A stretch of DNA of 64,000 nt from Chitinophagales bacterium (lineage in GTDB: Bacteria; Bacteroidota; Bacteroidia; Chitinophagales; Chitinophagaceae). The notes under the pieces are model-generated. The model saw only the letters and a program-made list of their open reading frames with translations, made no database searches and was not told the DNA's origin. The stretch's first letter is position 1; every line of letters begins with the position of its first letter. The position numbers and the translations under genes were made by a program. The DNA lies in the NCBI GenBank assembly GCA_025353485.1, contig JANXQO010000062.1, positions 39,299 to 103,298 on the forward strand, written 5' to 3'. Shown here piece by piece: positions 2,718-7,376 of the stretch.

Positions 2718-2749
2718 TTTGGACAACTTTACAAAAATGAATAGCTTTT
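2718..2749 (+). promoter_or_regulatory. Predicted Bacteroidota promoter of the ECF sigma operon
   Basis: TTTG at 2718-2721, a 20-base spacer and TAGCTTTT at 2742-2749 match the Bacteroidota primary sigma consensus (TTTG at -33, TAnnTTTG at -7) with one mismatch. The ATG used for the sigma factor follows 30 bases later. This is a pattern match only. Confidence 0.45.
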
Positions 2750-2779
2750 TACCCAACCATTTTGCTACTTTCAGCATCA

Positions 2780-3355
2780 ATGGAACAAGAACGCCTGTTA
2801 GTGGAACAAACTGCAATGCTTATTGATGGATGCATTAGAGGGGATAGACAATCCCAGAGCCACCTGTATGCTCTGCTAATGCAAAAAATGTTTGTTGTTT
2901 GCCTGCGCTACTCCAAAAACCGTGAAGAAGCTGAAGAAATATTACAGGAAGGCTTTATAAAGGTTTTTGAATTTATTCATCAATACAAATTTGCAGGCTC
3001 CTTTGAGGGATGGGTGAGAAAGATAATGGTAAACTGTGCCTTGCAGAAATACAGAAGTAAAAAACTGCACGCAGTAGTTGATATTGATATTGCTGCAATT
3101 GAAAATATAGGTAATGAAAATATTATTTCTCAATTAGGTACCAAAGAACTTTTAAAAATGGTACAACTACTTCCTCCTTCTTACCGCATGGTTTTTAACC
3201 TGTACGTTTTTGAAGGAATGAAACACAGGGAAATTGCAGCTCACTTAAAAATTTCAGAAGGCACCTCCAAATCTAATCTTTCAGATGCAAGAGCCATTCT
3301 GCAAAAGGCTGTTCATAACAGTTTACAATCATCTCAAAATATTAAACAATTATGA
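2780..3355 (+). CDS. RNA polymerase sigma-70 factor, ECF subfamily
   Basis: A 191-residue ECF sigma factor. Region 2 is visible around LRYSKNREEAEEILQEGFIK and the following FEGWVRKIMVNCALQKYR. Region 4 is the HTH around REIAAHLKISEGTSKSNLSDAR, which would read the -35 element. The ORF track begins at a TTG at 2762, but the in-frame ATG at 2780 (MEQERLL) gives a standard start and is preferred. The stop overlaps the next start as ATGA, so the downstream membrane protein is translationally coupled and is the likely anti-sigma factor. Target genes are unknown; the barrel and PepSY-like genes downstream are candidates. Confidence 0.93.
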   Translation: MEQERLLVEQTAMLIDGCIRGDRQSQSHLYALLMQKMFVVCLRYSKNREEAEEILQEGFIKVFEFIHQYKFAGSFEGWVRKIMVNCALQKYRSKKLHAVVDIDIAAIENIGNENIISQLGTKELLKMVQLLPPSYRMVFNLYVFEGMKHREIAAHLKISEGTSKSNLSDARAILQKAVHNSLQSSQNIKQL

Positions 3356-4929
3356 GTGAAAATCTACACAATATTGATGATCTGTTTAAAAAGGCAATTG
3401 ATGAGCACGGGGATACGCCTTCTTTAAAGGTGTGGGAAGCCATTGATAAAAATCTTGATAAAAAGAAAGTTGTTTCCATATCTAAAAAATATAATAAACT
3501 AAAATGGGCTGCTGCTGTTCTTTTACTGGCTTCTTTTGGAATGGCAATGTATACATGGCAAACAAGAATGAAAAATAAAGAACTGGTTAAACAAAACAAT
3601 ATTAATAAAGTATCTAAAATTAAAAATAAAACTAAAACTAAAAACAATAATAATAAAAACTTTACCCTCCCTGAAATAATAACTCCGCAAAATGAAAAGA
3701 ACAGCGACACTCAAAATAAAAAACAAATAAATTCACCACTAACTCAAACGGTTACCAACACGGATAAGCAAAAAAATCAGCAGGAAAATTTTGTACAACA
3801 AAATATTACTACAGCGCAAAAAGAAAAAAATCTGCTGCCAACTTCTTCTCAACATAATAATACTGCAAAGGATAAAGAAAAAGTTGAGCAGACGTTAGCT
3901 GCAAATCAGGATGAAAAAAAATCTGAACAATTTGATAAAAACAACAAACAGCAAAAAAATAAAAGAGTAATTATCCGGGATAACATTAAAACAAAAGTGC
4001 CTGAGAATACTATTACAACTCCCGAAAAATATATTGTTGACGCACCAATAATATTTATCAATGTGCCAAAGCCCTATGGCATTTTAGAAATACAATCAGT
4101 AAATCCTTTTTCAAATTCTCTTCCTTTTTTATCTGCTTCTGCAGAAAATATTACAGAAAAAAATAAAAACGCTTCTTCAAAAAAGAGTACTGCAAAATCA
4201 ACAAAAAGCTCTTTATTCTCAGCAACCATTTTCTTTTCACCTGAGTTTGTTTTTTCTAATGTAAAAGATGACCATCCACGTTTTAGAGAAGATAACAGGA
4301 ATGAAATTAAAAATAATGAGAAGATAATATCTTCATCAAGCTATGGCCTTTTACTGGAATATAGTGTCGGCAGTAACTGGAAACTACAATCAGGAGTAGC
4401 TGTGTTCACAAGGGTTACAGGCATTAACACCAAAATTATTTATGCCCGCCCGGATAATAACGGCAATGTAAATTACAGGCTTAGCTGCTCTGCAGGCTCT
4501 GTGTATGTTCCTCTTAAATCAGGTGCTAATCCTTCGCAGGGAGACAGCACTAAAATATTGTCAGCTAAAAACACCCTTCAGTATATAAGTATTCCGCTGG
4601 CAGTAAAATATGTTATCGGTAAGGGCAAACTAAATTTAGTTCCCGGTGTTGGTATCTCCGCAAATATTTTATCAAAGGGTAAAACTGAAACAGTGATTGC
4701 AACAACAGGTGGTAGTGAAAGCTCCGGCAGTAATAATATAGAGGGATTAAAATCCAATTACTTTAATAGCCAAATTAGTTTAGGAGCTCAATACCATTTA
4801 AGCAAAAAAATTGCATTGAATTTTACACCCACAGCAAGACTTGCTTTATCATCTATTAATAAAAATGCCGCTGTAAAAACAAAACTTAATTCTTTTGGTT
4901 TGTCTGCAGGCATTACCATCAAACTTTAA
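3352..4929 (+). CDS. Candidate dual-membrane-spanning anti-sigma factor with C-terminal beta-barrel
   Basis: A 525-residue protein in three parts. Residues 1-50 are a charged cytoplasmic segment (NIDDLFKKAIDEH, VWEAIDKNLDKKK). Residues about 52-70 form one hydrophobic helix (WAAAVLLLASFGMAMYTW). Residues 75-235 are a Lys/Asn/Gln-rich linker long enough to cross the periplasm. Residues about 285-525 alternate like outer-membrane barrel strands (FFSPEFVF, YGLLLEYSVG, YISIPLAVKYVIG) and end in GLSAGITIKL. It overlaps the ECF sigma gene by four bases. This matches the layout of dual-membrane-spanning anti-sigma factors (Dma) described in Bacteroides. The assignment as anti-sigma is inferred from position and topology, not from a recognised ASD motif. 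Confidence 0.72.
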   Translation: MSENLHNIDDLFKKAIDEHGDTPSLKVWEAIDKNLDKKKVVSISKKYNKLKWAAAVLLLASFGMAMYTWQTRMKNKELVKQNNINKVSKIKNKTKTKNNNNKNFTLPEIITPQNEKNSDTQNKKQINSPLTQTVTNTDKQKNQQENFVQQNITTAQKEKNLLPTSSQHNNTAKDKEKVEQTLAANQDEKKSEQFDKNNKQQKNKRVIIRDNIKTKVPENTITTPEKYIVDAPIIFINVPKPYGILEIQSVNPFSNSLPFLSASAENITEKNKNASSKKSTAKSTKSSLFSATIFFSPEFVFSNVKDDHPRFREDNRNEIKNNEKIISSSSYGLLLEYSVGSNWKLQSGVAVFTRVTGINTKIIYARPDNNGNVNYRLSCSAGSVYVPLKSGANPSQGDSTKILSAKNTLQYISIPLAVKYVIGKGKLNLVPGVGISANILSKGKTETVIATTGGSESSGSNNIEGLKSNYFNSQISLGAQYHLSKKIALNFTPTARLALSSINKNAAVKTKLNSFGLSAGITIKL

Positions 4930-5149
4930 TTTTAAAAGGTTCTCTTCGTTAATGTCAAATGTAAAACGTGAAAAAGATTTTTCATTTCACATTTCGCTTC
5001 TTACATTTCATTAGTTAAGATTTTCTTAAAGGAAACTTTTTGTAAAATCTTACCCAACTCTTTCAAAAGAATCAGACATCTACCTCCATGAAGTGCTTCT
5101 CAAAGCATTTAATCATCCTGAAAATTTATAACTATTAAATCTTAAAAAA

Positions 5150-6058
5150 ATGAAGTACCGCTTTAAACCACTAATTATTAATGTTGCTGTAGCCGCAGTA
5201 ATGGGCATGGCATCCTGTCAAAAAGAAGTAACAGTAAGTGCAACAGATACTGCAGCAATCCAGACTGCTGTAGCACAAACACAAGCAATCGCAGTTTCAA
5301 TAAGCGCAACAACTGCCGGCGATTCTGTGTATGTTATTAATACATGCTCTGCGCATTCCAGAAGAGATTCAGTTGCATTCGGCAGTTTGCCTTCTTCAAT
5401 AACTGATTATTTAAACACAAATTATTCCGGCTACACTTTTCAAAAAGCATTTACAATAAAAGATGCATCATCAACATTACAGGGGTATGTTGTTATAATA
5501 CAATTTAATGGTAACCCTGTAGGGTTAAAATTTGACACAGGCGGAAAGTTTGTTCAAGTGCTTGAACAACGGGAAGGCCGCGACCTTTTAGGCAGTGGCC
5601 ATCACGAAGGCGGATGCTTTCAAAACCGTGACGGAAAGCAAAGAGATACTGTGGCATTAAGTTCTTTGCCTTCTTTTATCACGACATACTTCGCTTCCAA
5701 TTATCCGCAGGATACTTTAGTTCGTGCTGCTAAAACAAGAGACAGCGGCTATATTTTGTTAAGTAAAAATAATGGATTGTTTGCAACCATTTTTAATGCT
5801 TCAGGGAGTTTTGTAAGCCGTATTGAATTGCCTGCACAAAAGGGTAAAGCAAATTCAATTGATCAAAGTGCACTGCCTGCCAACGCCCTTTCATATTTAT
5901 CAGCAACTTATCCCAACTATGTTTTTAATAAAGCATTTTCAATTACAGAGAATGGCGTAGTGCAGGGATACTGTGTGATTATTGAAGCCAACAATACAAA
6001 ATATGGGGTGCAGTTTGATGCCGCAGGAAATTTTGTAAAAGTAAAAACGATAAGATAG
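5150..6058 (+). CDS. PepSY-like repeat lipoprotein
   Basis: A 302-residue protein with a lipobox at MASCQKE. It carries three copies of a PepSY-like unit, at about residues 75-135, 165-222 and 235-302. Each starts with a variant of SLPSSITDYLNTNYSGY and continues with a central aromatic strand and a (V)KFDxxGxFV-like end. The middle copy is the most diverged, and an acidic/His-rich link (GSGHHEGGCFQNRDGK) precedes it. PepSY-like domains occur in secreted regulators and binding proteins; the ligand here is unknown. It follows the sigma/anti-sigma pair after 220 bases and may belong to its regulon, which is inference. Confidence 0.8.
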   Translation: MKYRFKPLIINVAVAAVMGMASCQKEVTVSATDTAAIQTAVAQTQAIAVSISATTAGDSVYVINTCSAHSRRDSVAFGSLPSSITDYLNTNYSGYTFQKAFTIKDASSTLQGYVVIIQFNGNPVGLKFDTGGKFVQVLEQREGRDLLGSGHHEGGCFQNRDGKQRDTVALSSLPSFITTYFASNYPQDTLVRAAKTRDSGYILLSKNNGLFATIFNASGSFVSRIELPAQKGKANSIDQSALPANALSYLSATYPNYVFNKAFSITENGVVQGYCVIIEANNTKYGVQFDAAGNFVKVKTIR

Positions 6059-6632: not shown

Positions 6633-7376
6633 ATGAAAACGCTTAAAGCACTTATTACCTCTGTATTTATTATCTCTTTCTCATTTGCTGCAATTGCACA
6701 GTTAAAAAGTTATCCTTATGAAGTCGGTATAAATTTAGGCGCAGAGCTTTATTCCGGGGATCTTACACCAACCTTATTAAGCCCCTATAAATCACCAGGA
6801 TTATTTTTAGGATTTAGCGGAAGTAAAAAACTAACCAATGCTTTTGCAATACAGGCAGGTCTTTCTTTTGGTAAAGTAAGAGCCAATGATGCCAATTATA
6901 AAAATCCCGAATACAGGCAGCAAAGAAATTTTAATTTTAAAACTTCAATAACGGAGCTTACTGCAAGTTTGTTATGGAATCCTTTAGGGACAGAAAGAAT
7001 TCTTTTTCCCTATTTTTTTGCCGGAGCCGGCATAAGCTTTTTAAAAGTGAGAAGAGATTACAGCAATCTTAATGCTGAATATTTCAGTAATGACCCGGCT
7101 ATTACAGATGGATTACCGCAGGATATTGCCCATCGTTTACCCCGTCTTATTCCTGTGTTGCCTGCAGGGGCAGGTATTCGTTATTTTCTCAACAAAAAAA
7201 TTTCTTTAAATCTGCAAACATCTTATCGGCTTATGTCAACTGATTATCTTGACGGTTTTAGTAAAGGAGCCAATCCATCAAAAAAAGATCACTATTATAC
7301 ACATACTATGGGGCTTATTTATTCATTTGGAGAAAGAAATACACTTTCCTGTCCTAAATTATCAGGGAAAAAATAA
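6633..7376 (+). CDS. DUF6089-like outer-membrane beta-barrel protein
   Basis: A 247-residue protein with a signal peptide cleaved near AIAQ. The mature part opens with YEVGINLGAELYSGDLTP and contains an RNFNFKTSITELTASLLWN segment, both typical of DUF6089-like small barrels of Bacteroidota. Alternating hydrophobic strands continue to a C-terminal LIYSFGERN. It probably sits in the outer membrane; function is unknown. It has its own start after a 219-base gap and is followed by a small gene on the same strand. Confidence 0.78.
   Translation: MKTLKALITSVFIISFSFAAIAQLKSYPYEVGINLGAELYSGDLTPTLLSPYKSPGLFLGFSGSKKLTNAFAIQAGLSFGKVRANDANYKNPEYRQQRNFNFKTSITELTASLLWNPLGTERILFPYFFAGAGISFLKVRRDYSNLNAEYFSNDPAITDGLPQDIAHRLPRLIPVLPAGAGIRYFLNKKISLNLQTSYRLMSTDYLDGFSKGANPSKKDHYYTHTMGLIYSFGERNTLSCPKLSGKK

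Follow-up and report, generated by a model that had tools for sequence, protein, structure and literature searches.

The Dma proteins are defined by four parts in one chain adjoining an ECF21 sigma factor (PMC13088901), and the same four parts are predicted in the protein described here. This architecture, together with derepression on loss of the anti-sigma factor, has been reported in Bacteroides and Phocaeicola (PMC13088901, PMC9308784, PMC13114119). Inducers of the published relatives are the toxin BcpT and bacteroidetocin A, a BamA inhibitor, and sensing of outer-membrane stress has been proposed for them (PMC9308784, PMC13114119). According to a survey in 2020, only 6% of the ECF factors of Bacteroidetes have a class I anti-sigma domain beside them, and the question of which classes dominate there was left open (PMC7406223). 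Here we describe a locus from a Chitinophagaceae bacterium, located in a stretch of 64,000 nucleotides referred to as the window. Its architecture is already known from Dma1, Dma2 and Reo, and the locus would be a further Dma-type case. What this analysis appears to add is the head delimited as a class-wide module that Pfam lacks, its near-universal pairing with one sigma group, mapped head-sigma couplings, tandem and barrel-less variants and a candidate promoter.

We read the locus, with a probability of roughly 0.8, as a Dma-type brake: a head clamps the sigma factor, the chain spans to a barrel in the outer membrane, and failure of the barrel or the membrane frees the sigma factor for an autoregulated operon. 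The mechanism would run as follows. In the unstressed cell, a two-helix cytoplasmic head would clamp the sigma factor, with helix 1 placed against sigma4 (Asp9 at Arg171, which belongs to the -35-binding region) and helix 2 against regions 2.1/2.2, the RNA-polymerase-binding face. A single helix would anchor the head in the inner membrane, with the tether crossing the periplasm and the barrel seated in the outer membrane. The likeliest signal would be faulty assembly or anchoring of the barrel, or damage to the outer membrane, upon which the anti-sigma factor would be lost, probably being proteolysed in the periplasm or the membrane. Once free, the sigma factor would transcribe its own operon from its CCCAACC-N15-GCATC promoter, resynthesising its brake, and probably also the downstream gene for a PepSY-like lipoprotein. 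Computation supports the gene pair, its architecture and topology, the coupling of head and sigma factor, and the promoter; inhibition of the sigma factor by the 525-residue chain, the outer-membrane signal and proteolytic release are inferred.

The ECF sigma factor gene (2780..3355, on the forward strand like every feature given here by window position) was identified by sigma alignments and by Pfam (Sigma70_r2, E 3e-10; Sigma70_r4_2, E 1e-14). The position 2718 quoted in a first-pass annotation is not a sigma start codon; the in-frame start codons are TTG 2762, which gives the longest frame, then ATG 2780 and GTG 2801. The candidate ECF-type promoter (2752..2778) consists of CAAC at 2754-2757 and CATC at 2775-2778 with a spacer of 17. 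Its -10 element ends at 2778, two bases 5' of ATG 2780, so this ATG would precede the transcript start; the sigma start of an orthologue (L004) aligns at GTG 2801. Judged from the promoter position and this alignment, GTG 2801 is the likeliest start. Sigma residues are nevertheless numbered here from ATG 2780, Arg171 being R177 in TTG-based numbering. Orthologous sigma genes from several genera retain the promoter element upstream. Of 198 members of the sigma group, 63 have CAAC-N14-18-CATC ahead of the sigma gene (51 of them with a spacing of 17), against a single occurrence in a reversed control, so that autoregulation of the sigma operon is probable for many members throughout the class. 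The sigma gene closes with TTA-TGA at 3355, and the ATG of the following ORF is at 3352, which gives the overlap of four bases, ATGA (3352..3355), noted in the first-pass annotation.

The second gene (3352..4929) encodes 525 residues, taken as a Dma-type anti-sigma factor from the ORF, Pfam, homologues and AlphaFold2 (AF2). The AF2 model, made from an alignment of 43 rows, has helices at residues 8-17, 25-34 and 37-84, the last of which contains the membrane helix. A head of about 45 residues precedes this single hydrophobic segment, the predicted inner-membrane helix (residues about 50-68; 3499..3555), identified by hydropathy and by charge bias: in 203 proteins, K+R number 4.8 in the 15 residues that precede the helix and 1.7 in the 15 that follow it (p = 5e-32), and because of this positive-inside bias the head is placed in the cytoplasm. 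Then follows a disordered Lys/Asn-rich stretch of about 190 residues, the predicted periplasmic tether (residues about 90-280; 3619..4191; 15% K, 15% N, 9% Q), with AF2 pLDDT mostly below 50 over residues 113-261. The C-terminal part (residues 289-525; 4216..4926) is modelled as an outer-membrane barrel of eight main strands (about residues 289-524), with pLDDT of 90-98 over residues 321-525 and most of 289-320, and Foldseek matches it to the small outer-membrane barrels OmpT, Pla, Ail, OmpA, OmpW and OmpX. Pfam by itself would have missed the barrel, OMP_b-brl (PF13505) being below threshold on the chain (E 6e-4); OMP_b-brl_2 matches 37 of 43 homologues. A C-terminal Phe, expected for substrates of the barrel-assembly machinery, ends 69 of 108 barrels. 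Sub-threshold Pfam matches to Myb and Dapper and the NCBIfam match MrtP on the same chain were rejected as compositional noise. Hydropathy, composition, AF2 and Foldseek thus agree with the layout first read from the sequence, namely a head, one inner-membrane helix, a Lys/Asn/Gln-rich linker and a C-terminal barrel, and structure prediction of the full chain, the check proposed for it, returned the barrel with confidence.

How general is this pairing? The family-wide alignment of Dma proteins was too divergent for a contig scan, and the sigma factor alignment was used instead. Scanning the named genomes gave 80 loci in Chitinophagales, Bacteroidales, Sphingobacteriales, Flavobacteriales and others, in almost all of which a partner gene lies directly downstream of the sigma gene. 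Addition of further genome loci brought the set to 221 sigma-partner pairs across Bacteroidia; a head HMM matches 203 of the 221 partners and a barrel HMM 114. Of the 18 partners with no head match, most have an N-terminus that looks, by eye, alike though diverged, and at least three (L139, L210, L301) appear to be wrongly chosen ORFs. The spacing between the two genes is exactly -4 in 46 of 203 pairs, the genes overlap in 144, and the gap is 30 bases or less in 188. The sigma group is present in 73 of the 74 same-class genomes of a phylum sample, in 1-10 copies each. The plasmid sequences searched gave no match, and viral contigs gave two distant sigma matches only, neither with a head-bearing partner. 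An accidental pair, in which an ECF gene happens to stand beside an unrelated porin gene, would suit the weak porin match that is all Pfam reports; the conserved head, the gene overlap, the pairing in 203 of 221 cases and the coevolution described below contradict it, and we give it next to no credence. The search of sigma-adjacent genes suggested at the outset has therefore found the pair conserved throughout the class.

The host genome holds eight sigma/partner pairs, seven with long partners and one with a short one, plus a ninth, more distant pair (L031). The partners at L031 (C166) and at L032 (C77), 186 and 217 residues long, have a similar head and are barrel-less. The second sigma/barrel pair of the closest kind (L002/L003, G000:C114:20523-21917) encodes a protein 27% identical to that of the window; it has Gly at the aligned head position 9 and Lys in the sigma factor, and the Asp-Arg contact seems to be absent from it.

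The conserved part of the head comprises residues 7-37 (3370..3462), delimited by the head HMM, AF2 and coevolution. It covers the first two AF2 helices and bears the motif xxxIDxLFxxxLxxxExxPPxxVWxxIxxxL, with the Asp9 codon at 3376-3378. In Pfam the head has no match, class I anti-sigma domains included; a PDB search with the head profile gave no anti-sigma match and no similarity to solved anti-sigma domains, nor did a PDB sequence search with the whole chain give an anti-sigma match. The head contains no Cys, and the zinc motif is absent. The earlier statement that the protein lacks a recognisable anti-sigma domain thus holds for Pfam and fails in so far as a conserved head module can be recognised in 203 of 221 partners. 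This short unannotated head is very probably the part that grips the sigma factor, and we regard it as a candidate anti-sigma domain.

The partners are modular: besides those with a barrel, there are 78 among the 221 that are short and lack it, and tandem heads, two or more per protein, occur in 17. Such modular use suggests that it is the head that stays constant and is directed at the sigma factor, and the many barrel-less relatives suggest that the barrel is dispensable for anti-sigma function as such. The tandem-head partners have two to four heads and one membrane helix and are barrel-less (L077, L082, L097, L103, L105, L110, L116, L117, L118, L126, L128, L133, L176, L179, L181, L187 and L279); with several heads, one partner might bind more than one sigma molecule, or the number of heads might set a dose. 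These partners are short, from which the partner at L023 (G017:C134) differs in being long; it is incomplete at the contig end and has the head motif twice in tandem.

The abundance of head-only partners and the tether sequence, which is unconserved among homologues, would also fit a chain cut soon after export into a classical anti-sigma factor and an unrelated small porin, the two being fused at the gene level only. Yet the fusion of head and barrel is retained in 114 of 221 partners across Bacteroidia, and the tether has at least 107 residues in every case (median 211), lengths that fit the requirement to cross the periplasm. We therefore consider early cleavage improbable and retain the reading of one continuous brake.

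The evidence that the head meets the sigma factor comes from mean-field coevolution over 203 sigma-head pairs (effective number 150). The top coupling, with a score of 4.1, joins sigma R171 (codon 3290..3292) to head D9; 40 full shuffles reached at most 1.69, and 40 shuffles confined to clusters of similar sigmas at most 2.82. The two positions combine as R-D in 116 pairs, K-E in 34, R-E in 25 and K-D in 2. Residues I31, N34, L35 and D36 of head helix 2 couple more weakly to sigma regions 2.1/2.2, and these couplings are individually modest. On the same 87 barrel proteins, the top barrel-sigma couplings reach 1.98 and 1.65 against 3.11 for the head, with residual phylogenetic signal in both. 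In an alignment with the RpoE-like chain 8z6g_B, sigma R171 falls on the Arg of 'RAREAI', which we take, from the E. coli sequence, to be RpoE R178. RseA D11 couples to this RpoE R178, and D11H abolishes RseA activity (PMC7406223). By alignment, then, D9-R171 would occupy the same position as the RseA D11-RpoE R178 contact. From these couplings, the contact of the head with sigma4 appears well supported and that with sigma2 likely. A relative whose two genes are in frame (L129), read through the stop as one chain, gave a low-confidence AF2 model with pTM 0.46 and head pLDDT of about 60-70, and the alignments of this model by Foldseek with sigma factors bound to anti-sigma factors are weakly supportive.

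Coevolution shows contact and not the sign of its effect, and the head might instead act on the sigma factor as a chaperone or an activator, as the N-terminus of FecR does. Against this, the coupled surfaces are those that inhibitory anti-sigma domains block (PMC7406223), in Bacteroides and Phocaeicola the sigma regulon is switched on when proteins with this architecture are lost (PMC13088901, PMC9308784), and an operon that its sigma factor apparently autoregulates calls for a brake. An activating head is thus very improbable, and inhibition is preferred. The N-terminal residues, expected from the outset to touch the sigma factor, do covary with it at two surfaces relevant to inhibition. The proposal that one chain joins control of RNA polymerase to the outer membrane accordingly gains support from the barrel, the conserved pair, the head-sigma covariation and the positive-inside topology.

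Which other genes would the freed sigma factor reach? A second candidate promoter-like element (CCCAAC...CATC, spacer 18; 5053..5080), a motif match with weaker evidence, is also present in a close relative (L059). It lies upstream of a candidate target (5150..6058), a lipoprotein gene with three PepSY-like repeats (Pfam PF11396). About ten loci in Chitinophagaceae have a PepSY-like gene next to such a pair, among them that of the C114 pair of the host genome, where the PepSY-like gene follows the pair. Genome-wide, the strict motif has four sites in the host genome, one of them inside a coding gene, against one in the reversed control; the evidence for a regulon beyond the sigma operon is weak. 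Two of the strict host sites lie 30 bases before a gene for a thioredoxin-like secreted protein (L141, C37:10757-10783) and 94 bases before one for an S41-protease-like lipoprotein (L142, C56:6320-6346), both identified by eye, and possibly these are envelope-repair targets. In two genera another kind of ECF sigma gene, of one type in both, has the motif in front of it (L147, G005:C1:351105-351131; L168, G078:C35:80111-80138), suggesting a sigma cascade. Further downstream in the window (6633-7376) lies another small outer-membrane barrel gene (DUF6089/OMP_b-brl), also found downstream of the L059 pair.

As to what the barrel reports, it could serve as the receptor of one particular ligand outside the cell, such as a glycan, whose binding is passed along the chain to free the sigma factor. 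Glycan sensing was proposed by the authors of Dma2 (PMC13088901), and the eight pairs of the host genome and the divergence of the barrels (mean column identity 23%) would suit different ligands. However, it is not obvious how an eight-strand barrel of the size of OmpX, OmpA or OmpW could transmit a conformational signal mechanically through 190 disordered residues, Reo responds to toxins that target the outer membrane, and no glycan-use locus lies beside the window pair within the genes examined. Ligand sensing is on balance unlikely; sensing of barrel assembly or of outer-membrane integrity is preferred to it, as a tentative choice somewhat short of even odds. We would be about as cautious with a broader proposal: that the two-helix head is a minimal anti-sigma domain missing from Pfam, that it is the dominant brake of one ECF group throughout Bacteroidia, combined with varied sensors (the outer-membrane barrel or short periplasmic parts) and in some lineages present in two to four repeats, and that in the barrel form the barrel is an assembly sentinel.

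A head of about 35 residues, unmarked in the domain libraries searched, would be one concrete answer to the question raised by the 2020 survey, for one large sigma group; if so, some of the many ECF factors of Bacteroidota without a class I anti-sigma factor would be explained by the head family. If the barrel is an assembly sentinel, the cell would read its own capacity for outer-membrane assembly through one chain, and this is now a testable hypothesis. The head-sigma contact is reduced to single testable residues, D9 and R171, and the candidate promoter can be used for finding targets. Dma-type control, described in gut Bacteroidales, would thereby reach Chitinophagaceae of the environment and other Bacteroidia as well.

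Among known systems, FecA-FecR-FecI employs a large TonB-dependent transducer and a separate FecR, whereas here an eight-strand barrel and the head share one chain. The contact of an Asp in helix 1 with an Arg of sigma4, and a second, here coupling-based, interface on sigma2, are shared with RseA-RpoE and class I (PMC7406223); unlike class I domains, the head has two helices (about 30-45 residues) instead of four, and has neither the Hx3Cx2C zinc motif nor a profile match. The head would thus work like a class I domain at the Asp-Arg contact and not be a member of the class. In class II, CnrY of Cupriavidus has two helices, the first on sigma4 and the second on sigma2 (PMC7406223), with which the coupling pattern of the head agrees; CnrY differs in having no barrel, and no sequence similarity between it and the head was found. 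EcfO-Reo of Bacteroides fragilis and Phocaeicola vulgatus is likewise a pair whose anti-sigma factor reaches from the cytoplasm to the outer membrane, a proposed sensor of outer-membrane stress whose sigma gene is strongly induced together with its regulon (PMC9308784, PMC13114119); that regulon has nigD genes, where the motif points here to the PepSY-like lipoprotein gene and two other candidate genes. The reference systems for likeness are Dma1/Das1 and Dma2/Das2 of Bacteroides thetaiotaomicron (PMC13088901; Pardue 2024, as cited there). The present pair differs from them in its Chitinophagaceae host and in its neighbour, a PepSY-like lipoprotein gene in place of BT_1555-1557 or NigD. Like them, it sets an ECF sigma factor beside an N-terminal anti-sigma part, one membrane helix, a disordered tether and a C-terminal barrel, and the likeness to Bacteroides Dma rests on this architecture and on homologous pairs in other Bacteroidales genomes.
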